A DNA stretch of 13,090 bases from contig JAFGDX010000049.1 in NCBI GenBank assembly GCA_016931875.1, forward strand, positions 1 through 13,090. The letters run 5' to 3'. Source of the DNA: Prolixibacteraceae bacterium. GTDB lineage: Bacteria; Bacteroidota; Bacteroidia; Bacteroidales; Prolixibacteraceae. The position numbers were made by a program, and so were the translations under genes. This document shows positions 1 through 13,090 of the stretch, piece after piece (position 1 is the first letter of the stretch; each line of letters starts with the position of its first letter). The notes under the pieces were generated by a model. That model saw only the letters and a list, made by a program, of their open reading frames with translations. It was not told the origin of the DNA and ran no database searches.

Positions 1-35
1 CCAACGGATAAAAGCAAAAGAATAATTAACCACAT
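1..35 (-). CDS. Possible start of a membrane or exported protein, cut by the left edge
   Basis: An ATG at 35-33 on the minus strand opens a frame that reads MWLIILLLLSV and runs off the window. This looks like the start of a signal peptide or membrane helix. A TATATTTG box lies 41 bases upstream (76-83, minus strand), which would suit a Bacteroidota promoter. Only 11 residues are visible and there is no Shine-Dalgarno sequence. Two other frames are also open to the edge: a minus-strand frame from the stop at 118-120 without an ATG, and a plus-strand frame ending in a TAG at 55-57 that could be the tail of a gene entering from the left. The call is therefore weak. Confidence 0.22.
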   Translation of the reverse strand, partial: MWLIILLLLSV

Positions 36-75
36 AAAGCACGCGAGATTGGTTTAGTAAAATTCCGAAAATGTC

Positions 76-83
76 CAAATATA
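76..83 (-). promoter_or_regulatory. Candidate Bacteroidota -7 box (TATATTTG)
   Basis: On the minus strand this octamer matches the Bacteroidota housekeeping consensus TAnnTTTG exactly. It sits downstream of the DegT gene stop and upstream of the possible gene start at 35. No clear TTTG element is seen at the expected spacing upstream; the nearest TTTG is only about 12 bases away. The match may be chance in AT-rich DNA. Confidence 0.25.
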
Positions 84-143
84 CATTAAACAGTGCAAAT
101 TCACCGGGTTTCTTTTCCTAAAAAGTAAGCCTTCAAAAGCAAA

Positions 144-1487
144 TTAAACAAGCAAATTTCTGTTCTCATATATTTTTGAAATGGCATTTACAATATCGTT
201 CATATCAGTTTTGTTTTCCAGCAGCATGCTTTGTGAAAAAATTACGGCTTCTTTTGCCAGCTGGTCGTTTCCCGGCAAAATATTTTCTTCCCGCCACTGT
301 TTGAGGCGTTGTTCAGAAAAAAGCCTTTTGTATCCTTTTGAATTAAGTGCGTCTTCAATTAACCCATCGTGGTTTTGGCGTCCGTATCCTGCAGAACAGG
401 GAATGCCTTCAGCACGCAAAGCTGCGATGAATTTTTCTCTGGTCACATTTCCAAATTGTTCTGATACAAACCGGAACGGATAGAGATGATAAGCAGAGCG
501 GGCATTTTCGGTTACCAGTTTGTAAGGTTCAATTCCCGGAATTTCGGCCAGTTTTTTATCAAGGTATTTTGCATTTTCCAAGCGGAGGTTTGCATCGTTT
601 TCAATACGCTTCATTTGAGAGAGCAGCATCAGGGCCTGTATTTGCTGCATTCTCCGGTTGCTTCCGCGAATGGGATAATCCGAAGTGCGCTGCACACTTC
701 CAAATGGTCTTCCGCAATTGTGAAATGAAAAACACCGGTCCATAATTTCATCGTTATTCCCAACAATGGCACCTCCTTCGCCGGTGGGTAAATTTTTAGA
801 GTTTTGAAAACTAAAACACCCCAAATCGCCCAGTGTTCCCAGCTTTTTTCCTTTGTATTCGCCCAGCCATGCCTGGCAGGCATCTTCAATTACTTTCAGC
901 CCGTGCTTCGCGGCCACTGCATTTACGCGGTCCATATCAACCGGTAATCCGTAAATATGAACCGGTAGAATAGCCGATGTGCGTTCTGTGATTTTCTCTT
1001 CCATTTTTGCCGGATTTATCAGAAAAGTTTCCGGATCTGTGTCCACAAATACCGGGAGTGCCTTGTTCATAAAAATCACATTATAAGTAGCAATAAAAGT
1101 AAACGGCGAAACCAGCACCTCGTCGCCGGCATCCACTCCCATAACATGCATGGCCACCAGCAAAGCAGTTGTTCCGCTGGCCGTAGCCAAACACCTTTTG
1201 GTTCCCATCAGGGCGGCATATTTTTGTTCAAACTCTGCCACATGGCCCCCGCTACCACGCCACCAGTTGCCGCTGCGAAGCATTTCAACAATGCCGTTTT
1301 CGGCTGTTTTATCCCACACCGGCCACTCGGGCCAGGCCGTTTGCCTCACCTTTTCTCCGCCGTGGATGGCCAGTTTTTGTGAAGTATTCAAACCAAAAGA
1401 TGAAAAAGGGACAACAGACAACGCACCAATGGCGCCCGCCGAAGCCGTTGCAATGGCCTGCCTGCGGGTAATTTTCCGGTCTTCCAT
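144..1487 (-). CDS. Tat-exported DegT/DnrJ/EryC1/StrS-family PLP aminotransferase
   Basis: This 447-residue protein has the DegT/DnrJ/EryC1/StrS fold-type I aminotransferase layout. Residues 103-112 hold the SGTTAL cofactor-phosphate region, EDACQAWLG is at 201-209, and SKNLPTGEGGA at 230-240 carries the expected PLP-binding Lys231. These enzymes usually transfer an amino group to keto-sugars for cell-surface glycans or antibiotics; some are dehydratases or sensors. The N-terminus is unusual. Residues 6-12 contain a twin-arginine motif (ITRRQAI) followed by a hydrophobic Ala/Gly-rich stretch to about residue 31, so the protein is probably exported folded with its PLP by the Tat system. The first ATG is supported because it keeps this signal intact. 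The substrate cannot be told, and no sugar-pathway genes are adjacent. It is transcribed alone, away from the next gene at 1662. The family is near certain; export is likely. Confidence 0.93.
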   Translation of the reverse strand: MEDRKITRRQAIATASAGAIGALSVVPFSSFGLNTSQKLAIHGGEKVRQTAWPEWPVWDKTAENGIVEMLRSGNWWRGSGGHVAEFEQKYAALMGTKRCLATASGTTALLVAMHVMGVDAGDEVLVSPFTFIATYNVIFMNKALPVFVDTDPETFLINPAKMEEKITERTSAILPVHIYGLPVDMDRVNAVAAKHGLKVIEDACQAWLGEYKGKKLGTLGDLGCFSFQNSKNLPTGEGGAIVGNNDEIMDRCFSFHNCGRPFGSVQRTSDYPIRGSNRRMQQIQALMLLSQMKRIENDANLRLENAKYLDKKLAEIPGIEPYKLVTENARSAYHLYPFRFVSEQFGNVTREKFIAALRAEGIPCSAGYGRQNHDGLIEDALNSKGYKRLFSEQRLKQWREENILPGNDQLAKEAVIFSQSMLLENKTDMNDIVNAISKIYENRNLLV

Positions 1488-1661
1488 AATGTCAGGTTTT
1501 AAAATTGAACATACATTTCAAGTTACGTAAAATTACTTTTTCATCAAACCTGCCTGGAAACAATCAAAATTGTTATTTCAATTATTCCCCCGGATTTGGT
1601 TTAAAATTTCACTGCTGTACTTGTTTTTCATTGTAAATAATTTGAAATTGGAAAAAAAACG

Positions 1662-2381
1662 ATGAACGATATACAAAAGCAGACAAAAACCAAATTTGTT
1701 CCGTTGCTGATTTTTGCAGTGGCAATGGGTTTTCTGGAAGCCATTGTGGTGGTATATTTACGGGAATTGTATTACCCCGGCGGCTTTGAATTTCCACTTA
1801 AAATGTTGCCTTCCAGGTTAATGACAGTAGAAATAGTACGCGAATTTGCCACCCTGCTGATGTTGTTGTCGGTGGCGTGGATTTCGGGGAAAAACTTTTT
1901 GCAGCGCTTATCCGCTTTTCTGTTTCTGTTTGGCATTTGGGACATATTGTATTACCTGGCGCTTAAACTATTTCTCAACTGGCCCGAATCGCTGTTTACC
2001 TGGGACCTCCTTTTTTTGATTCCCATTATTTGGCTCGCACCGGTTTTGGCGCCCGTAATTTGTTCGGTTGTAATGATTTTTATGGCATTTTTATTTGATT
2101 ATTTCAGGGTAAAAAACCAATCGCCTGCAATAAAAAGTGGGGAACTGGGATTCATGATTGCCGGCGCTGTAATTATTTATTTCACCTTCACCTACGATGT
2201 TGGGAAATTGATTCTGCAGGGAAACCATCTGAATTCTTTCCTTGATTTAACCAAAAATCAGGATTTCATAACCGAATTAACAAACTATTCACCGGACAGC
2301 TTTTTGTGGGGAATTTTCGGGACAGGTTTAATGATGATTTTTTTGGGAATTGGTATGTTTATAAAGCGAAATTCATCATGA
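1662..2381 (+). CDS. Multi-span integral membrane protein of unknown function
   Basis: I do not recognise a named family for this 239-residue protein. It has about six hydrophobic segments, near residues 13-33, 60-76, 82-104, 113-147 (probably two spans), 162-178 and 213-234. Conserved-looking patches are EAIVVVYLRELYYPGG at 26-41, TVEIVRE at 55-61, GIWDILYY at 91-98 and FTWDLLFLIP at 112-121. These charged and aromatic residues at membrane borders suggest more than a structural anchor. There is no signal-peptide cleavage site and no known catalytic motif. The ATG at 1662 is preceded by a GGA-plus-A-run that could serve as a ribosome binding site. The next gene, a histidine kinase, is 159 bases downstream on the same strand with its own promoter candidate, so a shared operon is uncertain. 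Confidence 0.8.
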   Translation: MNDIQKQTKTKFVPLLIFAVAMGFLEAIVVVYLRELYYPGGFEFPLKMLPSRLMTVEIVREFATLLMLLSVAWISGKNFLQRLSAFLFLFGIWDILYYLALKLFLNWPESLFTWDLLFLIPIIWLAPVLAPVICSVVMIFMAFLFDYFRVKNQSPAIKSGELGFMIAGAVIIYFTFTYDVGKLILQGNHLNSFLDLTKNQDFITELTNYSPDSFLWGIFGTGLMMIFLGIGMFIKRNSS

Positions 2382-2439
2382 AAAAATTATAAGTCATCAG
2401 TAAAGAAACGTTGCGGATTTCATTTTATAACTCTTTTTT

Positions 2440-2456
2440 ATTTGAAACTTTCAAAT
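2440..2456. repeat. 17-bp inverted repeat upstream of the histidine kinase gene
   Basis: The sequence ATTTGAAACTTTCAAAT is a perfect dyad with 8-base arms around one central C. It lies 84 bases before the kinase start codon and about 40 bases before the candidate -7 box. The one-base centre makes it a poor hairpin and a better fit to a dimeric repressor or activator site. The composition is AT-rich, so chance occurrence is possible. Confidence 0.3.
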
Positions 2457-2496
2457 TATTAATTTCAATTGAGTGCAGCTAATTTATATTTCCTGC

Positions 2497-2504
2497 TAAA
2501 TTTG
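2497..2504 (+). promoter_or_regulatory. Candidate Bacteroidota -7 box (TAAATTTG) for the histidine kinase gene
   Basis: This octamer matches TAnnTTTG exactly and lies 36 bases upstream of the kinase ATG. That spacing would give a leader of about 30 bases. The -33 element is not convincing: an ATTG at 2468-2471 is about 25 bases upstream, longer than the usual 19-21. Confidence 0.4.
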
Positions 2505-2540
2505 TGCACTTAATTATGGACGTATAATTTTTTTTACGGA

Positions 2541-4298
2541 ATGAATTATCAGCTTACCACTGAGAGTTTGGTTGAGATTGTCACAGCCTTTGCGGCATTT
2601 GCTGCTATTGGATTTCTTTGGAAGAAACGTAAGCTACCAGAGGTGAAATACCTTATTCTGCTGGAGTTGTTTGTGGCGGTATGGGCTGTAACCTATGCAT
2701 TCGAATTTGCTACAAACCACCTTCAGACCAAAATTATGTGGTCAAAATTATCGTATTTCGGAATTGCATTTCTTCCGGTATTTTATTTTCTTTTTGCTAC
2801 CGCTTTCAGCCAAAAAACAAAAATTCTTACCCGGCGAAATATTCTCTTATTATCAATTTTACCAATCGTTACCATTGTCCTGATTCTTACCAACGATACT
2901 CACCATTTGGTTTGGACCGATGTCAGCGCCGACCCGGTTTTGAATATCGCCCACTATCATCACGGCGTGTGGTTTTGGATATTCTGGAGCTATGCCATGC
3001 TTCTGTTGTTTTTTGGCTTGTTCAACTTAATCCATTCTATCTACAAATTTACAGAGTATTACAAGTCACAAATCACAGTACTGCTGCTAGCTACCCTCTT
3101 TCCCATTGTGGGGAATGTTATGTATGTTACCGGAATTAATCCTTTCCCCGGTTTCGACTGGACACCCGTGTCGTTTGTGCTTACCGGGTTGATTATTGCT
3201 TTTGGAATTGTGCGTTATAAAATTTTCGACCTGGTTCCTTTTGCAAGAAACAAACTCATTAACACCATGAATGACGGGGTTATTGTAATTAATTACAATG
3301 GGGTAATTGAAGATTGCAACGCATCGGGCTATTCCATTTTTTCATTGGGAAAAACGTCCGTAATCCATAAAAATTTTGCTGATATTTTTGCCGGCTATAA
3401 AGAATTGGTGAAGGCTGTTAAAACAAAAACTACGGAAAAAATACAGATTAAAATTGATGAAAAATATTACCAGGCTCAAATTTCACCTGTTTACAACCGG
3501 AGAAAAGATTTTTCGGGTAGCCTGGTGGTTTTACACGATATTACGGACATAAAAAAAGTGGAAGGTGAGCTAAAAAAAACAAACCAACAATTACTTAACG
3601 AGATTGAGATTCGCGAAAAACTGATTGAAGACCTTGACTCGTTTACACACACAGTGGCGCACGATTTAAAAAATACGCTGGGAACCATAGTTTCGTCGGG
3701 CGAAATTCTGGAAGAAATGATAAAAACCGAAGATAACAAACACGGCGCCCAACTGGCTTCGTTAATAAAAAATTCGGCCGGAAAAGCTGTTCAAATCACT
3801 CAGGAACTTCTCATTTTGGCCTGGTCGGGTCACAATGGTATTGAAACAAATGATTTGGAAATGACCTCCATTTTTGAGGAGGCAAAAGAGCAACTTGATG
3901 AATTAATTCAAAAAAAGCAGGCTGAAATACACTTACCGAAAAGCTGGTTAAATGCCAAAGGTTATGCCCCGTGGATAGAAGAAGTTTGGGTGAATTATCT
4001 GAGCAATGCATTAAAATACAGCGGAACTCCGCCCAAAATTGAAGTTGGTTCAGTGCCCGCGGAAAACAACATGGTAAAATACTGGATAAAAGACAATGGC
4101 GAAGGACTAACCCCTGAAGAGCAATCGAAACTGTTCCAGAAATATGTACGTTTTGCTCCTAAAGGAATTGCCGGACACGGATTGGGCCTCACCATTGTAA
4201 AACGAATTATTGAAAAACTGGGAGGAACCGTGGGTGTGGAAAGCCACGGAAAAAGCAACCGGGGAACTTTATTCTTCTTTACATTACCAGCCGGTTAA
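2541..4298 (+). CDS. Membrane-bound sensor histidine kinase (7TM sensor, PAS, HisKA, HATPase)
   Basis: This 585-residue protein is a complete sensor kinase. Residues 1 to about 228 contain seven hydrophobic segments of the N-terminal 7TM histidine-kinase sensor type. A PAS domain follows at about 238-338, then a short coiled-coil linker. The dimerisation domain holds the H-box THTVAHDLKN at 369-378, with His374 as the predicted phosphoacceptor. The ATP-binding domain has the N-box EEVWVNYLSNALKYSG at 480-495, the G1 box DNGEGL at 518-523, an F-box-like LFQKYVRF at 531-538, and the G2 box GHGLGLTIVK at 545-554. All catalytic boxes look intact. There is no fused receiver domain, and no response regulator gene lies on either side in this window, so it is an orphan kinase here. 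The ligand is unknown. The ATG is preceded by ACGGA. The gene converges on fumC with 13 bases between stops. Confidence 0.93.
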   Translation: MNYQLTTESLVEIVTAFAAFAAIGFLWKKRKLPEVKYLILLELFVAVWAVTYAFEFATNHLQTKIMWSKLSYFGIAFLPVFYFLFATAFSQKTKILTRRNILLLSILPIVTIVLILTNDTHHLVWTDVSADPVLNIAHYHHGVWFWIFWSYAMLLLFFGLFNLIHSIYKFTEYYKSQITVLLLATLFPIVGNVMYVTGINPFPGFDWTPVSFVLTGLIIAFGIVRYKIFDLVPFARNKLINTMNDGVIVINYNGVIEDCNASGYSIFSLGKTSVIHKNFADIFAGYKELVKAVKTKTTEKIQIKIDEKYYQAQISPVYNRRKDFSGSLVVLHDITDIKKVEGELKKTNQQLLNEIEIREKLIEDLDSFTHTVAHDLKNTLGTIVSSGEILEEMIKTEDNKHGAQLASLIKNSAGKAVQITQELLILAWSGHNGIETNDLEMTSIFEEAKEQLDELIQKKQAEIHLPKSWLNAKGYAPWIEEVWVNYLSNALKYSGTPPKIEVGSVPAENNMVKYWIKDNGEGLTPEEQSKLFQKYVRFAPKGIAGHGLGLTIVKRIIEKLGGTVGVESHGKSNRGTLFFFTLPAG

Positions 4299-4311
4299 CC
4301 GTTCAATTCCG

Positions 4312-5706
4312 TTAAATGTTTCCGGTCATTTTTTTTGGATCAACCCATTTATCAAAATCTTCGGCAGTCAAATATCCCAAAGCAATTCCCGCTTCTTTTA
4401 AGGTTATATTTTCGTGGTAAGCCTTTTTGGCAATTTCAGCTGCCCTGTTGTAACCAATGTGCGGGTTTAAGCTGGTTACCAGCATTAACGAATTTTCGAG
4501 GTGTTTTTGAATAACCGGAACATTGGGTTTTATACCGTCCACACAATGGTGGCTGAAACTAACACAGGCATCACCGGTTAAACGTGCACTTTCCAGCACA
4601 TTGGCCGCAATTACGGGTTTAAACACATTCAGTTCAAACTGGCCGTTGCTGCCGGCAATACCAACGGTTACATCGTTTCCCATCACCTGCGCCGCCACCA
4701 TGGTTAACGCTTCGGCCTGTGTAGGGTTAACTTTTCCGGGCATGATACTCGAGCCAGGTTCATTTGCCGGAAGCACTATTTCGCCAATTCCGCACCGTGG
4801 CCCGCTGCCCAGCATCCGGATGTCGTTGCCTATTTTCATCAGGCTCACTGCCACACGCCGGAAAGCGCTGCTGAGTTCCACCATTGCATCGTGGGCGGCC
4901 AGAGCTTCAAACTTATTTGGCGCTGAAACAAAAGGCAATCCCGTTAAAACAGCTATTTTTTTTGCTACTGCCCCGGCATATCCATCAGGAGCATTCAATC
5001 CTGTTCCTACGGCTGTTCCGCCCAATGCAATTTCTGCCACACTTTCCAAAGCCCGGTTTATGGCGTGCAGTCCTTTGCCAAGCTGTTGCGCATACCCGCT
5101 AAATTCCTGTCCAAGTGTTAATGGCGTGGCATCCATAAAATGTGTGCGGCCGGTTTTTACAATGTCTTTGAATTCGCCGGCTTTTTCTGAAAGCGAATCG
5201 CGAAGCTTTTTTATTCCGGGAATGGTTATTTCCATGGTTACTTTGTAACTGGCAATGTGCATGGCCGTTGGAAAAGTATCGTTGCTGCTCTGACTTTTGT
5301 TTACATCGTCGTTGGGGTGAAGGAACTTTTTGCTGTCGGTTAATTTCCCTCCCTGAAGAACATGCCCGCGGTTGGCAATCACTTCATTCACATTCATATT
5401 GCTTTGTGTACCACTTCCGGTTTGCCAGACAACCAGCGGAAACTGATCGTCGTGTTTTCCCGCAATAATTTCATCACAAACACGGGCAATCAGGTCCGCC
5501 TTTTCTTTTGCAAGAACACCCAAATCGTAATTGGTAAGCGCCGCTGCTTTTTTTAAAATGGCAAAAGCATAAATAATTTCGATGGGCATACTCGATGTTC
5601 TGCCAATTTTAAAGTTGTGGCGGCTTCGTTCGGTTTGGGCTCCCCAGTACTTTTCAGCTGGCACTTTAACTTCACCCATGGTATCTTTTTCAATACGAAA
5701 TTTCAT
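4312..5706 (-). CDS. fumC: Class II fumarate hydratase (fumarase C)
   Basis: This 464-residue protein matches class II fumarase in length and motifs. It catalyses reversible hydration of fumarate to malate in the TCA cycle, in the cytoplasm as a homotetramer, without an iron-sulfur cluster. Visible motifs are GSGTQSNMN at 97-105, SSNDTFPT at 140-147, [10 protein letters not shown] at 186-195 with the catalytic-site His188, and the fumarase/aspartase signature [11 protein letters not shown] at 318-328 with the catalytic Ser319. The N-terminus, reading [16 protein letters not shown], is typical of the family. Aspartase shares the signature, but the overall motif spellings, such as SSNDTFPT with THFMDATP, fit fumarase better. 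The gene is monocistronic here: it converges on the kinase gene downstream, and a 233-base region separates it from the divergent gene at 5940. No terminator hairpin is evident in the 13-base gap between stops. Confidence 0.97.
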
Positions 5707-5916
5707 TTGCTTAAAATTTTTAAATCTGTAAAATCAACTGTTTTGCAATGTTAACAAACAAACAGACCGTTTGATTTGCCATACATTGGTTACCTTCAGT
5801 TGTTGAAACTTTAAATTTACAAGAGTTACTTCAGTAAAAAAAAGTAGATGACCATAAAAATGGTAACTCTGCGGATAAAACCAGTATCGTTTAAAATTTA
5901 TTTTTTTGAAAAAGTG

Positions 5917-5924
5917 TAATTTTG
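5917..5924 (+). promoter_or_regulatory. Candidate Bacteroidota -7 box (TAATTTTG)
   Basis: This is an exact TAnnTTTG match ending 15 bases before the ATG at 5940. If used, transcription would begin only about 10 bases before the start codon. That favours the ATG at 5940 over the in-frame TTG at 5922, which lies inside the box. The -33 region has only a weak GTTTA at 5889-5893. Confidence 0.4.
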
Positions 5925-5939
5925 CTGAAAACCAAAATT

Positions 5940-6308
5940 ATGGAATCAGTAATTACCCAATCAATCATAGCGGCTATTTTTGCTATCGTATTGATTTTAA
6001 CAGGAATCATTCTCCGAAAAGGTGGGGAACCCTACAAAACAAGTATTTTCACACTACACAAATTAGCGGTGGTGGCTCTCATTGTTTTTGTAGTTCTCAT
6101 TTATGTTCAACATTTTAAACTATTCTTTTTTGAAGGTTTTGGTTTGTTTTTGTTTCTGCTGTCGGCTGTTTTATTTGTAGCTGCTTTTTTTTCAGGTGTG
6201 CTGCTTGCATTTGAAAAAACATCGTCCTACAAATTACAAATTATACACCGTCTCGCCTCCTGGTTAACCGCATTGTGTATTCCTGCTATCTGGGTGTATT
6301 GTCATTGA
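5940..6308 (+). CDS. Small four-helix membrane protein with helix-border histidines
   Basis: This 122-residue protein has four predicted transmembrane helices at about 5-25, 40-57, 66-90 and 103-120. The frame extends upstream to a TTG at 5922, but the ATG at 5940 is the better start because the TTG lies within a promoter-like box. Histidines fall at the ends of helices: His40 in TLHKLAVVAL, His58 in VQHFK, His103 in IIHRLASWLT, and His122 as the last residue. Paired histidines in a four-helix bundle are how cytochrome b561-like proteins hold heme, so heme binding is possible. That is inference from residue placement; I do not recognise the family. The gene stands alone, divergent from fumC and 106 bases before the next gene. 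Confidence 0.75.
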   Translation: MESVITQSIIAAIFAIVLILTGIILRKGGEPYKTSIFTLHKLAVVALIVFVVLIYVQHFKLFFFEGFGLFLFLLSAVLFVAAFFSGVLLAFEKTSSYKLQIIHRLASWLTALCIPAIWVYCH

Positions 6309-6414
6309 ATGGCATGGCATCACTTTTTCTTTTCAGAAATGGCAGTTTATAACAGGCAGTGAACCAAACATTCATTTTTTCTTTTTAGTTTTATGACAAC
6401 TTAACATCAGTAGA

Positions 6415-7047
6415 ATGAAAACAAAACTTTTTATAATAGCCGTTCTGATTTTTTTCACAGAAAGCATCTCAGCGCAGGAAAATTATCGTCCCGGTCTGTT
6501 TTTCAGGGAAGACTGGAAAGAAATTCCGGCTGAAATCCCGCTTTCGCAAAAACATGTAAACAACCCTGATTTAGTGGTGCAATTGTACGGAGCAGGTAAA
6601 GACAGCCTGAAAAAAAGCAATCATCCGCAACCGGTTGACGATCCGTTTTATGTATGGTCGGGGTTGTGTCTTGAAAACTGGATGATCTCACTAAAACACA
6701 AAACACAAAACGCAGACTTAACCGGGTTTGCAAAAATCCGCTGGCGTACAAAACAGTTTGGGTTCCGTCTACTTCGTATTACCTTAAAACTGGCCGACGG
6801 TACCTGGCTGGTAAGCGACCAGTTTGACGGGCCTTCAAAAGACTGGCGTATCAAGGAGTTTAATATTCAGGATATTGAATGGCATATTCTCGACCCGGAA
6901 AGAATTGTTGAAATTGGGGTAGCCAAAAACCCCGACCTTTCGAATGTGGAAGAAATTGGATTTACTGACCTGATGCCCGGAGGACAATCGGCAGCCTGTT
7001 CGCGTCTCGACTGGATTGAAGTAGACGGGAAACCGGTTCAGCGCTAA
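6415..7047 (+). CDS. Secreted beta-rich protein of unknown function
   Basis: This 210-residue protein begins with a clear Sec signal peptide (residues 1 to about 21, hydrophobic core LFIIAVLIFF, probable cleavage after ISAQ). The mature part is rich in alternating hydrophobic and polar residues and aromatic residues, and few helices are expected. Residues 100-200 in particular look like a beta-sandwich, with GFAKIRWRTKQFGFRLLRI at 104-122 and CSRLDWIEVDGKPV at 195-208. Carbohydrate-binding or galactose-binding-like domains look like this, but I cannot assign a family and see no catalytic motif. No lipobox cysteine follows the signal, so it is probably periplasmic or released, not a lipoprotein. 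The following gene starts 15 bases after its stop, so the two may be co-transcribed, although their predicted locations differ. Confidence 0.78.
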   Translation: MKTKLFIIAVLIFFTESISAQENYRPGLFFREDWKEIPAEIPLSQKHVNNPDLVVQLYGAGKDSLKKSNHPQPVDDPFYVWSGLCLENWMISLKHKTQNADLTGFAKIRWRTKQFGFRLLRITLKLADGTWLVSDQFDGPSKDWRIKEFNIQDIEWHILDPERIVEIGVAKNPDLSNVEEIGFTDLMPGGQSAACSRLDWIEVDGKPVQR

Positions 7048-7062
7048 AATCAACCACCGCAA

Positions 7063-7533
7063 ATGGAAACTGCTTCACTCAGCGAAATAAAAAAAGAACT
7101 AAAAACACTACCTCCTGCTCAGCTTCAGGAAATGACCGTGCGGCTGGCCAAATTCAAAAAGGAAAACAAGGAATTGCTGAGTTATCTGCTTTTTGATGCT
7201 TTTAACCAGCAAGTTTTTACTCAGAGTGTAAAAGAAGAAATCGACGAGCAATTTAAAAACCTGAACAGCAGCAGTTTTTACCTGGCCAAAAAAACCTTGC
7301 GAAAAGTACTTCGCACAACCAAAAAATACATTCGTTTTTCAGGTTCAAAAGAAGTTGAAATTGAATTGTTGATCTATTTCTGTTTAAAAATGAAAAAATC
7401 AGGATTGAAAATAAATTCAAGCCGGGTAGTTATGAATATGTACCTCAACCAGGTGCGCCGGGTAAAACAAATACTTTCCATGCTGCACGAAGATATTCAA
7501 ATGGATTTTGATGAAGATTTAAAAAAGTTGTAA
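7063..7533 (+). CDS. Small basic, helical cytoplasmic protein of unknown function
   Basis: This 156-residue protein is rich in lysine, glutamate and leucine with no signal peptide or membrane helix, so it is probably cytoplasmic and all-helical. The start, SLSEIKKELKTLPPAQLQEM at about 5-24, followed by a Lys-rich helix, is loosely like the DUF6155 group of small Bacteroidota proteins; this is a low-confidence resemblance from memory. A basic patch near residues 75-91 includes AKKTLRKVLRTTKK and could bind nucleic acid or an acidic partner, which is speculation. The ATG lies 15 bases after the stop of the secreted-protein gene, suggesting co-transcription. The downstream ettA gene has its own promoter candidate 51 bases after this stop. 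Confidence 0.75.
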   Translation: METASLSEIKKELKTLPPAQLQEMTVRLAKFKKENKELLSYLLFDAFNQQVFTQSVKEEIDEQFKNLNSSSFYLAKKTLRKVLRTTKKYIRFSGSKEVEIELLIYFCLKMKKSGLKINSSRVVMNMYLNQVRRVKQILSMLHEDIQMDFDEDLKKL

Positions 7534-7584
7534 ATATTTTGTTTATTCCCGATTTACACCTCCTGAAATCTGCTTCCCTTTTTC

Positions 7585-7592
7585 TAATTTTG
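7585..7592 (+). promoter_or_regulatory. Candidate Bacteroidota -7 box (TAATTTTG) for ettA
   Basis: This exact TAnnTTTG match lies 21 bases before the ettA ATG, in the only non-coding gap (80 bases) upstream of that gene. It would give a leader of about 15 bases. No clear TTTG element is present at 19-21 bases upstream, so the -33 half is degenerate. Confidence 0.42.
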
Positions 7593-7613
7593 CAGCAAAT
7601 AAAACACTGAAAA

Positions 7614-9299
7614 ATGAGCGACGATAAAAAGATAATTTTCTCGATGTATAAGGTGAGTAAAATTTACCCACCCAACAAAACAGTAATCAAAGACATTTCA
7701 CTTTCGTTTTTTCTGGGCGCCAAAATTGGTATTATCGGTTTAAACGGTTCGGGGAAATCTACACTGCTGCGCATCATTGCCGGGCAGGACAAAGCCTTTA
7801 ACGGCGAGTTGGTTTTTGCGCCCGGCTATTCGGTTGGTTTGCTTGAACAGGAGCCCAAACTCGACGAATCGAAAACCGTCATCGAAATTGTAAGAGAAGG
7901 GATGCAGGAAACCGTTGATGTGCTGAACCGCTACGAAGAAATTAACCAGCTGTTTGGCTTGCCCGAAGTGTATGAAAACCCGGATGAAATGGACAAACTG
8001 ATGACAGAACAAGCGCAGTTGCAGGAAAAAATTGACCAACTGGATGCGTGGAACCTGGACAGTAAACTGGAACGGGCTATGGACGCGCTGCAATGTCCGC
8101 CCGATGATCAGCCGGTGAGTGAACTCTCGGGAGGGGAACGCCGCCGTGTGGCACTTTGCCGGTTACTGCTGAAAGAACCCGACGTGCTGCTGCTCGACGA
8201 ACCTACCAACCACCTTGATGCCGAAAGTATTCAGTGGCTCGAAATGCACCTCGCGCAATACAAAGGAACTGTTATTTGCATCACCCACGATCGCTACTTC
8301 CTCGATAATGTTGCCGGCTGGATTCTGGAACTCGACCGCGGGCAGGGAATTCCGTGGAAAGGAAATTATACCTCCTGGCTGGAGCAAAAATCAAAACGAC
8401 TGGAACAGGAAGAAAAAGGCAGCCAAAAACGCCGGAAAACACTGGAACGCGAGCTGGAATGGGTGCGAATGGCACCAAAAGCCAGACATGCAAAGGCAAA
8501 AGCGCGTTTAAATGCCTACGATAAAATGTTAAATGAAGATGTAAAACAAAAGGAAGAAAAACTGGAAATTTTTATTCCCAACGGGCCGCGGCTGGGCGAC
8601 AAGGTGATTGAAATGGAAAATGTTTCCAAAGGATATGGCAACCGGGTTTTATTTGAAAACCTCAGTTTTAAACTTCCTCCGGCAGGAATTATCGGGGTTA
8701 TCGGGCCAAACGGCGCCGGAAAAACCACCTTGTTCAAACTGATTATGAGACAACTGGAAGCCGATGAGGGTACTATTGACGTTGGCGACACAGTGAAAAT
8801 CAGCTACGTTGACCAAACCCATGCCGCCATCGATCCGAATAAATCGGTTTTTGAAGTCATCTCGGGCGGAACGGAAACCATGATACTGGGCACCCGCCAG
8901 GTAAATTCGCGCGCGTATGTGGCACGGTTTAACTTTACCGGCGCCGACCAGGAAAAAAAATGCGGCGTGCTTTCGGGTGGCGAACGCAACCGGCTTCACC
9001 TGGCGCTGGCGTTAAAAGCCGAAGGCAATGTGTTGCTGCTTGACGAACCTACCAACGACATTGATGTGAACACCTTGCGGGCACTGGAAGAAGGCCTTGA
9101 AAACTTTGCCGGCTGCGCTGTTGTTATTTCGCACGACCGCTGGTTCCTCGACAGAATTGCCACACATATTCTTGCTTTTGAGGGCAACTCAAATGTCTAT
9201 TATTTTGAAGGCTCGTTTACTGAATACGAAGAAAACCGCAAAAAACGGCTTGGCGACGAGGCTCCAAAACGTATAAAATACAAAAAACTCAGAGAATAA
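7614..9299 (+). CDS. ettA: Energy-dependent translational throttle protein EttA (ABC-F)
   Basis: This 561-residue protein has two tandem ABC ATPase domains and no membrane segments, the ABC-F plan. Domain one has Walker A GLNGSGKST at 42-50, signature LSGGERRR at 171-178, and Walker B LLLDEPTNHLD at 192-202. Domain two has GPNGAGKTT at 364-372, LSGGERNR at 453-460 and LLLDEPTNDID at 474-484. The arm insertion of EttA is present at about 95-140. The linker (about 253-325) contains the P-site tRNA-interaction motif, with ELEWVRMAPKARHAKAKARL at 280-299. The tail PKRIKYKKLRE matches EttA rather than Uup or antibiotic-resistance ABC-Fs. EttA binds the ribosomal E site and, depending on ATP/ADP ratio, restrains or stimulates entry into elongation. 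The gene has its own promoter candidate and is probably monocistronic. Confidence 0.97.
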   Translation: MSDDKKIIFSMYKVSKIYPPNKTVIKDISLSFFLGAKIGIIGLNGSGKSTLLRIIAGQDKAFNGELVFAPGYSVGLLEQEPKLDESKTVIEIVREGMQETVDVLNRYEEINQLFGLPEVYENPDEMDKLMTEQAQLQEKIDQLDAWNLDSKLERAMDALQCPPDDQPVSELSGGERRRVALCRLLLKEPDVLLLDEPTNHLDAESIQWLEMHLAQYKGTVICITHDRYFLDNVAGWILELDRGQGIPWKGNYTSWLEQKSKRLEQEEKGSQKRRKTLERELEWVRMAPKARHAKAKARLNAYDKMLNEDVKQKEEKLEIFIPNGPRLGDKVIEMENVSKGYGNRVLFENLSFKLPPAGIIGVIGPNGAGKTTLFKLIMRQLEADEGTIDVGDTVKISYVDQTHAAIDPNKSVFEVISGGTETMILGTRQVNSRAYVARFNFTGADQEKKCGVLSGGERNRLHLALALKAEGNVLLLDEPTNDIDVNTLRALEEGLENFAGCAVVISHDRWFLDRIATHILAFEGNSNVYYFEGSFTEYEENRKKRLGDEAPKRIKYKKLRE

Positions 9300-9412
9300 T
9301 TCCATTCCTTTTGATGACTAAATAAACGAGGTTTTTTATTGCACACGTAAGGATTGAAATTACGGTATAAAACATAATATAATAATATGTCTGTAAGCAT
9401 TATTTCCATTTC

Positions 9413-9429
9413 AACAGTGAGATACTGTT
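9413..9429. repeat. Short inverted repeat between ettA and the DUF486 gene
   Basis: AACAGT and ACTGTT form a 6-base perfect stem around a five-base loop (GAGAT). The stem lies 114 bases after the ettA stop and 48 bases before the DUF486 start. It is followed by only four T residues, so it is a weak terminator at best. It could equally be a small operator or chance. Confidence 0.22.
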
Positions 9430-9476
9430 CATTTTAAAATCAAACCTGTTTTATTGTTTTACAAAAAATTACATGT

Positions 9477-9848
9477 ATGAATAAAGGATTGATTACCATT
9501 CTTTTGCTTGTTCTGTCGAACACTTTTATGACTTTTGCCTGGTACGGGCATTTAAAGTTCAAAGAATTTAGCTGGTTTGGGAGCCTGGGGCTAATTGCAA
9601 TTATTTTAATCAGCTGGGGGATTGCTTTCTTTGAGTATATTTTTCAGGTGCCGGCCAACCGTATTGGGTTCAATAGCAACGGAGGCCCGTTTAATCTCTG
9701 GCAGTTGAAGGTTATCCAGGAAGTTATCACACTTTCCGTTTTTACCGTTTTTACGGTTGCCTTTTTTAAAACCGAAACGTTCAGAATGAACCACCTGATT
9801 GGTTTTGTTTTTCTGATTTTGGCTGTATATTTTATTTTCAAAAAGTGA
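9477..9848 (+). CDS. DMT-family protein, DUF486
   Basis: This 123-residue protein is a DUF486 (PF04342) member. These are short, four-helix relatives of drug/metabolite transporter subunits, with no established substrate. Helices lie near residues 4-22, 33-55, 83-97 and 104-121. Family hallmarks are TFAWYGHLKF at 19-28, SWGIAFFEYIFQVPANRIG at 46-64, and QLKVIQEVITLSVF at 76-89. The length is normal for the family. The gene has 177 bases of AT-rich non-coding DNA upstream, where I see no full promoter match. It converges on the AAA+ ATPase gene with 90 bases between stops. It appears to be the last ordinary chromosomal gene before the injection-system-like region. Confidence 0.92.
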   Translation: MNKGLITILLLVLSNTFMTFAWYGHLKFKEFSWFGSLGLIAIILISWGIAFFEYIFQVPANRIGFNSNGGPFNLWQLKVIQEVITLSVFTVFTVAFFKTETFRMNHLIGFVFLILAVYFIFKK

Positions 9849-9938
9849 TAGTCATTATTTCCCCGCAAAAAAATTACTATGCCATTTTGTTGAAAAAGTG
9901 GTACTCGGCAATTGGTATAATTTGAAGGTTAACACTTC

Positions 9939-11258
9939 TTAAGTAAGCCGAATCATTTTTCCTTCTTTCTGGTATTCCTTTTGAATGCCGGACATCAAGT
10001 CATTCCGGGAAATCGTGGTTGATTGGTTTTCAAGCGTTTTCAGCCCGGCATAATGAATTGCATTCACAATATTGGCGCCGGTTAAATCGTATTTCTGCGC
10101 CACTTCACGGAGCGATATTTTTTTGTCGAGTTTTACATTTTCCGGGAGGTAGTTTTTCCACAACAAAAGGCGTTCTGCCACTCCCGGGTTTTCAAACTCA
10201 ACCATGGAGTTGAACCGGCGGGTAAACGACGCATCGATGTTGCTTTTCAGATTCGATGCCAGGATGACCAGCCCGGCGTGCGATTCAATGCGCTGCAACA
10301 GGTAAGAAACCTCCTGGTTGGCATATTTGTCGTGGGCATCGCGCACATTGGTGCGTTTTCCAAAAATGGAATCGGCCTCGTCGAAAAACAAAATCCAGTC
10401 TTTGTTGGCAGCTTTGTCAAACAACCGGGACAGATTTTTTTCGGTCTCGCCAATATATTTTGAAACCACCATCGACAGGTCGATACGGTACACATCGCGG
10501 TTGGTATATTTTCCCAACAGGCAGGCTGTCATGGTTTTTCCGGTACCTGCCGGCCCGTGAAACAACACACGGAACCCGGGTTTAATTTTCCCCTTCATCC
10601 CCCAGTTGTTTAGCAAAGTATCGTTGTGTTTCAACCAGATTTCAATTTCTTTGATTTCGTCCATGGTTTTTTCCTGCAACACCAGGTCGTTCCATTCCAG
10701 TCCGGTAGTAATCCGCTCTGCCGGAAAGTCGCTGTTCAGCCTGGGTTTTGATATTTTCCCGGTGGTAAACAAATCCACATACTCTTCGTCCATGACCAAA
10801 CGCCCGCTCATTTTGGGTTCTCCGTGATTAACATGATCCAAATACAACACATTTTTCCGGGCAAAAAGATGCTCCTCGTCAAAAATTCGCGCAACCTCCA
10901 TGCGCTTTTGAATGTCCTTCCCGGCAAGAATATACAAGGCTGTTTCGCCGGTGGGAAGAATGCCCCGGTGATTTTTTCCTTTTACGCCGCCAAACTCAGG
11001 AAAATCTCCTCCGTTGGGAAGATATGCGGCGATAACCGGTCCAAAAAAACCCGGGTCAATATGAGGAATCAATGCCAGAAAGAGTACGACAACATCAAAA
11101 AAAGAAAGCCTGTTTTCAAGAATAAAACCTGCCAGTTCGGATTGCTCCAATTCTTCAGGGCGAAAATCGGGCAAACGTATATTGTTCTGTTTAAACTCCA
11201 GTTCAAAACGGGACTGAATTACTTTTTGCAGATAATAGGGAACTTTTGAGGTATTCAT
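9939..11258 (-). CDS. AAA+ ATPase of the eCIS-associated (Afp15-like) type
   Basis: This 439-residue protein has a single C-terminal AAA+ module. It shows Walker A GPAGTGKT at 235-242, Walker B ILFFDEAD at 289-296, the sensor-1 Asn336 in LASNLKSN, paired arginines 347-348 in FTRRF as the arginine-finger region, and a lid with LTGANIVNAI at 392-401. The N-terminal 200 residues are family-specific and include LALIPHIDPGFF at 61-72, FPEFGGVKG at 86-94 and GILPTGETALYILAG at 99-113. I recall this pattern from ATPases encoded beside Bacteroidota contractile injection systems. In such systems the ATPase (Afp15/Pvc15) is needed for particle assembly. The upstream gene on the same strand encodes a DUF4157 protein and ends 35 bases before this start, supporting one transcript. 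AGGAAA directly precedes the ATG. A general chaperone-like AAA+ role is the alternative. Confidence 0.88.
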   Translation of the reverse strand: MNTSKVPYYLQKVIQSRFELEFKQNNIRLPDFRPEELEQSELAGFILENRLSFFDVVVLFLALIPHIDPGFFGPVIAAYLPNGGDFPEFGGVKGKNHRGILPTGETALYILAGKDIQKRMEVARIFDEEHLFARKNVLYLDHVNHGEPKMSGRLVMDEEYVDLFTTGKISKPRLNSDFPAERITTGLEWNDLVLQEKTMDEIKEIEIWLKHNDTLLNNWGMKGKIKPGFRVLFHGPAGTGKTMTACLLGKYTNRDVYRIDLSMVVSKYIGETEKNLSRLFDKAANKDWILFFDEADSIFGKRTNVRDAHDKYANQEVSYLLQRIESHAGLVILASNLKSNIDASFTRRFNSMVEFENPGVAERLLLWKNYLPENVKLDKKISLREVAQKYDLTGANIVNAIHYAGLKTLENQSTTISRNDLMSGIQKEYQKEGKMIRLT

Positions 11259-11293
11259 TTTCCTGTTGCTTTAAAAATGAAATTATTTCTGAT

Positions 11294-13090
11294 TTATTCA
11301 CAAATATTATTTTCCGGATTAGTCTGATCCATTACCAGTACAATATTGTTGTCGACTACCCTGGTCACAAACACCTGAATATCTGCCCTTCGATAACGCT
11401 GCCAGTCGTTTTTAGGATCTCCGGTTTCGGCAAGCCCTTCTTCCGAGCCCCTGCTTTCTTCATCAAAATCAACCTCACTGGCGGGTGAGCCTTCTTCGCA
11501 CACACCCGAAGGGTAAATAGATACCGGAGGCAGTAAGTCGCTGTAGGTATCCAGGCCGGCATACAATTCAAAGCTTGTATTTTGTGCCCTTGCCATGGCC
11601 AACGACAAATTCTCTTCAGCAGCCCGTTGTTCTGTTCCGGCACCGCGCCAAATTGGCGAAGCATGCCCGACCACCGAAATAGAGACAGAAGTGATAAAAG
11701 GATTATCGAGATTTGCGGCTACCGCTGCAACAATTTCAGCAACTGCTGCTTCATTGTTTTCTGCATGTACTCCTGAATGCAAATCATTTTCGCCGGTGTT
11801 AAAATACACCATTCGGGTGATAAGCTGTTCGGTCACCTGTGCCAGTTCAGCATTGTCACACTCCCCTTCGTGTGCTTCCAGTTCTCCTGATTCACCTTCA
11901 AATCCGCCCACAAAAAACTGGCCTCCACCCTGAATAATGTTAATTGCCGGCAGGTTTAAATGTCCTCCCAGTTCAATTCCCATACATCCTCCGGAAGTGT
12001 TAAAGAATATATCGTTTTTCCCGGGAATAATAAGATATAAATAAGCTGCATCCACACCCGCACTTACCACGGCACCACCACTTACCCCAAACGACTGTTC
12101 AATTGTTCCGCCCTCAAAGTCTTTTGGTCCGTACCAATCCGGTGTAGGATCAGGATCTGCAGAACCTGAACACAAATCCTCGTTACCAAAACTGGTGGAA
12201 ACAGACGGCCCAATGGATGCGCTGATGGAACATTCTCCCGAAAGTCCCACATTAATCTGCAGATATCCCTGTTCCCAGGTCATTCCCATATTGTTTGAAT
12301 AGCGGAACACAACATATCCGCCGCCAAATCCAATTTTTAGAAAGCAGCCTACTTTTAGTTTTCCGACCGGAGTCTCGGCAGCTCCTCCCAACCCAAGGCC
12401 GGCACCAGCAATATCGTCCGTGTCTCCAACAGCAGCATACACATTCATGGTATAATGATGTTCCACATCGCTTTCCGGGTTCAGGTTAAAATGGTCTTGT
12501 AATAAATTTGTTCTGTTCCGGTCGTATCTCATCCACTCATTGACCAAATCAAGTTCATGATTGCTGATTCCGGTTTCCCCTCCGGTTCCATCCATAATCA
12601 TTCGTTGAATTTCAGTATGGGTAAACGGGATGACGTAAATTAATGATTCGGTGCAATAAAAATCAGTATTGTAAATGGAATTGAATGAAGCCAATAGTGG
12701 GGCAATGGTTGGAATAGTACTGCTCACAGATGGATCATCCCAGTTTTCCTGGTTTCGCCACGACTCCCAGTCTTGTACCTGGGTGTGAAACGTTCTTAAA
12801 AAATCTTCTATTTCATAAATGCCCGATGGCTCAATGTCGCCACATTCGGCAGGTAAAGTGTCATTTACATCAAGCGGCGGTTGTGTATTCTGCGGGGCTT
12901 CGGTGGCAGGATCACCTTGTTTTTGCAAAACATTTCCATCCAATTCCTCAAAAGGGCATTCCCCTCCGCAACTTCGTTGTATCCGTGCGGGTTGCTGCTG
13001 AGCCACGTGGGTTAACTCGTGTGCCAGGAGCTTTTGACCCTGTTTTGATTCCGGGTCGTATTTTCCCTGATTAAAAAAAATGTCGTTTCC
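11294..13090 (-). CDS. DUF4157 (eCIS core domain) protein with C-terminal OmpA-like domain, 5' end missing
   Basis: The frame is open from the window edge, so the N-terminus is missing; 598 residues are visible. The first 50 residues are the end of a DUF4157 domain: GNDIFFNQGKY at 1-11, then LLAHELTHVAQQQ at 21-33 with an HExxH zinc-binding motif at 24-28. A Cys-containing RSCGGEC follows at 39-45. The GTG at 13006 lies inside this domain and is not the true start. Residues about 213-398 form a glycine-rich, beta-prone region I cannot assign. Residues about 423-578 resemble an OmpA-like domain, with YFNTGEND, GHAS at 475-478, NLSLAMARA at 494-502 and RRADIQV at 567-573. Eleven cysteines are visible. 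DUF4157 is a hallmark of eCIS loci, often in effectors or toxins. Here it could be an effector, a maturation protease, or a wall-anchoring component; the sequence does not decide between these. Confidence 0.85.
   Translation of the reverse strand, partial: GNDIFFNQGKYDPESKQGQKLLAHELTHVAQQQPARIQRSCGGECPFEELDGNVLQKQGDPATEAPQNTQPPLDVNDTLPAECGDIEPSGIYEIEDFLRTFHTQVQDWESWRNQENWDDPSVSSTIPTIAPLLASFNSIYNTDFYCTESLIYVIPFTHTEIQRMIMDGTGGETGISNHELDLVNEWMRYDRNRTNLLQDHFNLNPESDVEHHYTMNVYAAVGDTDDIAGAGLGLGGAAETPVGKLKVGCFLKIGFGGGYVVFRYSNNMGMTWEQGYLQINVGLSGECSISASIGPSVSTSFGNEDLCSGSADPDPTPDWYGPKDFEGGTIEQSFGVSGGAVVSAGVDAAYLYLIIPGKNDIFFNTSGGCMGIELGGHLNLPAINIIQGGGQFFVGGFEGESGELEAHEGECDNAELAQVTEQLITRMVYFNTGENDLHSGVHAENNEAAVAEIVAAVAANLDNPFITSVSISVVGHASPIWRGAGTEQRAAEENLSLAMARAQNTSFELYAGLDTYSDLLPPVSIYPSGVCEEGSPASEVDFDEESRGSEEGLAETGDPKNDWQRYRRADIQVFVTRVVDNNIVLVMDQTNPENNICE

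Follow-up and report, generated by a model that had tools for sequence, protein, structure and literature searches.

Two genes that probably close an AlgoCIS-type contractile injection operon in a Prolixibacteraceae genome

Two adjacent genes at the edge of a contig

The window analysed here, 13,090 nucleotides of a Prolixibacteraceae bacterium, is the whole of contig C417 (1-13090) of a draft genome assembly (3.23 Mb in 583 contigs, 70.87% complete), and the structural genes of an injection system therefore cannot be read on it. At its right-hand end, two minus-strand genes lie 35 bases apart, one encoding a DUF4157 protein and the other, downstream, an AAA+ ATPase (Table 1). This pairing had been proposed by a reading of the sequence alone (the sequence-only reading), and the open reading frames and Pfam matches bear it out. 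The rest of the window, 1-9938, carries ordinary chromosomal genes, and none of nine other genes scanned in the window matches an eCIS (extracellular contractile injection system) family, NCBIfam having been run on all nine and Pfam on seven. Between 9200 and 11400 there are 8 promoter-like sites, against a shuffle mean of 4.6 (sd 2.2), and 6 terminator-like sites, against 3.0 (sd 1.4); a scan for RNA families gave no match above the gathering cut-off. By eye, the DegT-family aminotransferase has an N-terminal twin-arginine-like leader (RRQAI, then a hydrophobic stretch), unusual for a DegT enzyme.

Table 1. Features of the window, with the predicted regions of the two genes at its right-hand end
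Feature	Position	Strand	Basis
DegT-family aminotransferase	144-1487	-	Pfam/NCBIfam scans
7TM histidine kinase	2541-4298		Pfam/NCBIfam scans
Class II fumarase	4312-5706		Pfam/NCBIfam scans
EttA-type ABC-F	7614-9299		Pfam/NCBIfam scans
DUF486 membrane protein	9477-9848		Pfam/NCBIfam scans
eCIS AAA+ ATPase, 439 aa	9939..11258	-	ORF; Pfam; congener comparison
AAA domain of ATPase, about residues 196-436	9951..10673	-	
Walker B ILFFDEAD, residues 289-296	10371..10394	-	alignment of 43 sequences
Walker A GPAGTGKT, residues 235-242	10533..10556	-	invariant columns of 43 sequences
DUF4157 (eCIS core) payload candidate, at least 598 aa, 5' end missing	11294..13090	-	ORF; Pfam
Predicted OmpA/MotB-like C-terminal fold, about residues 412-579	11354..11857	-	fold search
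Beta-rich, largely low-confidence payload middle, residues 206-411	11858..12475	-	AF2 model
Mostly helical, well-predicted payload region, residues 85-205	12476..12838	-	AF2 model
HELTH (HExxH) motif of DUF4157, residues 24-28	13007..13021	-	sequence

The ATPase consists of an N-terminal region (about residues 1-190) and a single AAA domain, matched by Pfam AAA (PF00004, E 1.7e-24) over residues 231-356. Both Walker motifs are intact in it, and among the 43 aligned ATPases the Walker B motif is conserved in 42, with ILVFDEAD in the remaining one. No NCBIfam model scores above its cut-off, the best sub-threshold one being IteA at 93.6 bits against 510. The sequence-only reading had called the protein Afp15-like. 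The likeness to the Pvc15/Afp15 ATPases stands in that this is an AAA+ protein of an eCIS operon adjoining payload genes; it fails in the domain architecture, since Pvc15 is described as having N, D1 and D2 domains, with AAA domains in tandem, up to residue 698 (as given in part of PMC11495950), whereas the window's protein has 439 residues and one recognisable AAA domain. Fold searches barely cover residues 1-170, which may contain a degenerate AAA-like fold. With only one AAA domain recognisable, data on Pvc15 may not transfer to this ATPase. No paper turned up in a literature search linking Afp15 with an AAA ATPase and eCIS.

The operon in two congeners and over five contigs

A search for the ATPase in 140 genomes of the family returned two congeners, G036 and G040, at 85% identity, each of which carries a co-directional operon on a single contig (in G036 a contig of 7.8 Mb). 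The order of genes is a Pvc16_N terminator, a relative of the cap adaptor, the sheath, tube 1, tube 2, CIS_tube, the spike, PAAR, gp25, a Baseplate_J protein, an Alg12 relative, a PKD protein, the tape measure, a DUF4157-PG_binding protein, a 113-aa protein, a muramidase, the DUF4157 relative of the window's gene and, at the end, the ATPase. PAAR is seen by name in G040 only, because the longest-ORF calling placed a 103-aa frame there in G036, and a 513-aa OmpA protein between the muramidase and the window-type DUF4157 gene is found in G036 only. The muramidase is an N-acetylmuramidase (PF11860) in both (E 3.3e-67 in G040, E 4e-66 in G036). In G036 the operon, terminator and ATPase included, measures about 27.7 kb. 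The DNA of the window aligns to both congeners over 9949-13090 only, so that the similarity does not extend past the ATPase, which by this comparison would be the last gene of the operon.

Further genes of the operon were found on four other contigs of the window's genome, through searches for eCIS_core (C161), for the tube family (C30) and for the operon DNA of one congener (C320 and C188). Against the proteins of that congener, C320 encodes an S13-peptidase relative, the terminator (86%), the cap-adaptor relative (78%) and residues 1-212 of the sheath (89%). C30 (5129 bp) holds, on one strand, the C-terminus of the sheath, two tubes, CIS_tube, the spike, PAAR, gp25 and the start of the baseplate protein; its sheath end scores 25.7 bits with PF17482, just below the cut-off of 26.9, and is 98% identical to that of the congener. 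C188 continues with baseplate residues 240-1049 (80%) and residues 1-547 of the Alg12 relative (87%), and C161 (6957 bp) with the PKD protein, the CIS_TMP tape measure, a DUF4157 protein with PG_binding_1 and the 113-aa protein. The four contigs thus tile the operon in the order of the congeners, with gaps, and together with the window are presumably adjacent in the genome; no end overlaps were found among C30, C161 and the window, the ends of C320 and C188 lying outside this test. The only match to the muramidase of the congeners in the window's genome is PG_binding-like, inside the DUF4157 protein of C161; if the gene is present, it would fall in an assembly gap.

The sequence-only reading had suggested an eCIS locus with its structural genes beyond base 13090. 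Those genes are indeed upstream in the congeners, where sheath, tube, spike, baseplate, Pvc16_N terminator and tape measure lie in one locus with the AAA+ ATPase, and in the window's genome they are on the four contigs just described. As a refutation it had named the lack of any sheath, tube or baseplate gene in some 30 kb upstream, together with best ATPase matches outside eCIS loci; in G036 the start of the sheath gene lies about 25 kb upstream of that of the ATPase, and in G040 about 23 kb.

The eCIS assignment draws further support from the surroundings of the ATPase elsewhere. A scan of named genomes gave at least 565 loci with the ATPase, of which the 80 best were considered, with longest-ORF gene calls: an eCIS marker lies upstream of it in 77 of these 80 and downstream, within the locus DNA examined, in none. 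The upstream markers among the same best 80 are DUF4157 (70 loci), the tape measure (62) and the PKD protein (47); in the three loci lacking a marker (L061, L086 and L105) the ATPase starts at base 3688, 91 and 4637, leaving at most 4.7 kb of upstream DNA. From 1 to 7 genes separate the tape measure from the ATPase in those 62 loci. In 13 of the best 80 the gene next to the ATPase encodes a DUF4157 protein, so the exact adjacency seen in the window is not the rule.

Within the family, the ATPase query has matches at E up to 0.001 in 139 of the 140 genomes, mostly other AAA proteins. At E below 1e-100, a cut-off picked after a gap was visible in the result table, a hand count gives 72 of 140. 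The tape-measure gene is likewise present in 72; both genes occur together in 70 genomes and neither in 66, two having the ATPase only (G011 and G019) and two the tape measure only (G023 and G048). Fisher's p for this co-occurrence is 7.7e-35, a descriptive value since the genomes are related. A chance pairing of the ATPase and DUF4157 genes was ruled out by the upstream markers and this co-occurrence.

The DUF4157 protein and its slot in the operon

The DUF4157 protein matches Pfam eCIS_core (PF13699) with E 4.1e-13, above the curated cut-off, and has the HExxH motif; the contig end cuts the gene, which limits the match to profile positions 44-77 of 79. Its relatives in the congeners have 786 and 793 residues and are 82-83% identical. 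What follows DUF4157 is a C-terminal module of its own, of about 540 residues and of patchy distribution, found in 3 of the 140 family genomes against 72 for the ATPase. Searching 5.8 billion proteins twice, with only about 8000 candidates scored each time, yielded 13 relatives of the module besides the window's protein, two of them reached by an alignment-based search. Three relatives of the module (P0010, P0011 (541 aa) and P0007) are listed without a precomputed DUF4157 domain and are possibly a free-standing form of it. A scan of viral contigs, whose query was a relative without a listed DUF4157 domain, found no relative. Six cysteines are invariant in all 12 aligned proteins, four of them within residues 206-411.

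The AF2 model of the protein is weak overall (mean pLDDT 63.7), and fold-search matches barely cover residues 60-411, so that the fold assignment concerns the C-terminal part, which is predicted to have an OmpA-like fold. Pfam OmpA (PF00691) has no match in the window's protein at E up to 0.1. A search of a viral fold library gave a single match at E < 0.001, a phage OmpA-domain protein, and the payload profile has a sole match in the PDB at E up to 0.1, namely 8vvi (Type II ZorB, MotB-like, E 9.2e-4), which spans about 56 residues only. ZorB itself belongs to a defence system, in which it is a motor subunit located in the membrane. Taking Asp271/Arg286 of A. baumannii OmpA as the reference pair that binds diaminopimelate, the Arg is kept in 12 of 12 payload proteins; the Asp position, which we equate with a payload serine through the GHTD motif, is Ser in all 12. 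The GH[A/T]S...R stretch of the payload aligns to GHTS of 8vvi, which therefore also has Ser, at the same place, instead of Asp. Among open-licence PMC papers, none was found that joins DUF4157, OmpA and peptidoglycan.

Like the DUF4157 payloads Cgo1, Cgo2, BDI_2459 and EAT14, the window's protein combines DUF4157 and HExxH with a further C-terminal part and is encoded 3' in its operon; it differs from them in that its C-terminal module is helical, has six cysteines and is predicted to be OmpA/MotB-like. A survey of the slot between the tape measure and the ATPase covered 65 genes of the 31 loci with a recognised tape measure among 35 (L055-L089), 129 further slot genes of L090-L134 lying outside it. 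Among the 25 of 35 Pfam families listed, at E up to 1e-4, eCIS_core occurs in 36 of the 65 genes, PG_binding_1 in 9, OmpA in 6, TPR in 5 and a calpain-type protease in 4. Wall-related modules are thus recurrent in the payload slot but a minority. In the second DUF4157 protein of the window's genome (L008:4568-6481), DUF4157 is preceded by a long glutamate-rich stretch and followed by a PG_binding_1 domain.

Type of system, alternative readings and possible target

The two genes of the window are very probably the last two of an AlgoCIS-type (lineage Ib) eCIS operon that is broken over five contigs. The observations behind this are the genes present and their order, the synteny shared with two congeners, the tight association of the ATPase with eCIS operons, and the rare payload module set against a common ATPase. 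By search scores of G036 proteins, the nearest relatives with solved structures belong to AlgoCIS, which has 7ADZ and 7AEB among its entries and is classed as lineage Ib, according to the passages of PMC8894135 drawn on here. The system shares with AlgoCIS of Algoriphagus machipongonensis relatives of the sheath, the Alg11/Alg12 baseplate, the cap adaptor and the PKD protein, as well as two DUF4157 genes; a possible difference is the ATPase, a word absent from the passages of that paper. The margin is small for the sheath (E 1.5e-149 to AlgoCIS), as the Anabaena system (7b5h) is nearly equal (E 4.6e-146) and is also matched by the G036 baseplate (E 3.9e-130). This, and the fact that T6SSiv falls within lineage Ib (part of PMC11495950), would agree with a contractile system that stays anchored in the cell, T6SSiv- or thylakoid-CIS-like, and is not released from it. 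Such a system is nonetheless improbable, for AlgoCIS is by far the closest match to the cap adaptor of G036 and to both of its baseplate proteins, and the PKD protein of the window's genome matches chain a of entry 9wt0, which includes Alg12 as well, far better (E 5.1e-131) than 7b5h (E 3e-22). A phage tail was set aside on account of the AAA ATPase, Pvc16_N and CIS_TMP. The dbeCIS genera of lineage Ib omitted from an effector count include Draconibacterium (part of PMC11495950), so eCIS in that genus's group is already on record; among open-licence PMC papers, this was the only one found on Draconibacterium and contractile injection.

As the assembly is fragmented and the contigs lack a physical join, the pair might be imagined as an orphan remnant, unlinked to structural genes in this genome. 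That would be surprising in the extreme, given that all operon genes are contiguous in two congeners and that the window's genome holds just one operon's worth of them, with one tape-measure gene, one pair of tubes and two DUF4157 genes. A more serious question concerns the DUF4157 protein itself, which could serve other payloads in trans as their chaperone or adaptor and be no payload itself. The role of DUF4157 has been described as elusive, and a chaperone function was proposed for DUF4157 proteins, which often adjoin toxins (part of PMC11297309); in both congeners the muramidase does lie between the two DUF4157 genes. Yet a large module of its own, confined to so few family genomes, is what is expected of a swapped payload, and Cgo1 and Cgo2, the DUF4157 proteins of AlgoCIS, are payloads within the tube lumen (passages of PMC8894135), so that the chaperone role appears unlikely here. 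The window's DUF4157 protein is, then, a probable injected payload, with what is modelled as a cell-wall-binding type of fold, and the ATPase is probably its loading motor.

In the mechanism that we propose, the ATPase would stay outside the particle, unfolding or stabilising payloads and threading them into the tube ahead of release, and the DUF4157 protein would be carried in the tube until contraction of the sheath brings it into the target cell. There, its OmpA/MotB-like end might tether it to the cell wall, in which case the target would be bacterial and the payload would presumably act on peptidoglycan. The DUF4157 protein BDI_2459, cargo of a CIS from Bacteroidota, was active only as a fusion with a periplasmic tag (part of PMC12210884), which is consistent with a periplasmic target; growth inhibition by Cgo1 of AlgoCIS, on the other hand, was seen whether or not it carried such a tag, and no bacterial strain that was tested suffered harm from AlgoCIS particles (passages of PMC8894135). 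Tentatively, and with some doubt, the slot may be regarded as a peptidoglycan-directed antibacterial set made up of the DUF4157-PG_binding_1 protein, the N-acetylmuramidase (if present in the window's genome) and the window's DUF4157 protein. The last would represent a payload class that is rare and combines a six-cysteine module with an OmpA/MotB-like wall tether in modified form. If so, the particle would be a periplasm-targeting weapon and not an anti-eukaryotic one.

The system is of an ordinary, known kind, and its payload is unusual. Machines of the eCIS type are under development as programmable protein injectors (part of PMC10097599), and the eCIS of Prolixibacteraceae offer a natural comparison of a common ATPase with a rare payload. 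As the one is common and the other rare, it becomes testable whether DUF4157 itself is what this compact ATPase, apparently with a single AAA domain, recognises; the predicted wall-binding type of fold of the payload may likewise point to a concrete target for an assay. A second eCIS type in the family is suggested by nine genomes (G001, G004, G008, G015, G021, G022, G038, G051 and G073), in which the tape-measure match is split over an open frame of 1225-1451 residues and a more distant ATPase (43-48% identical) lies on the contig of the tape measure.
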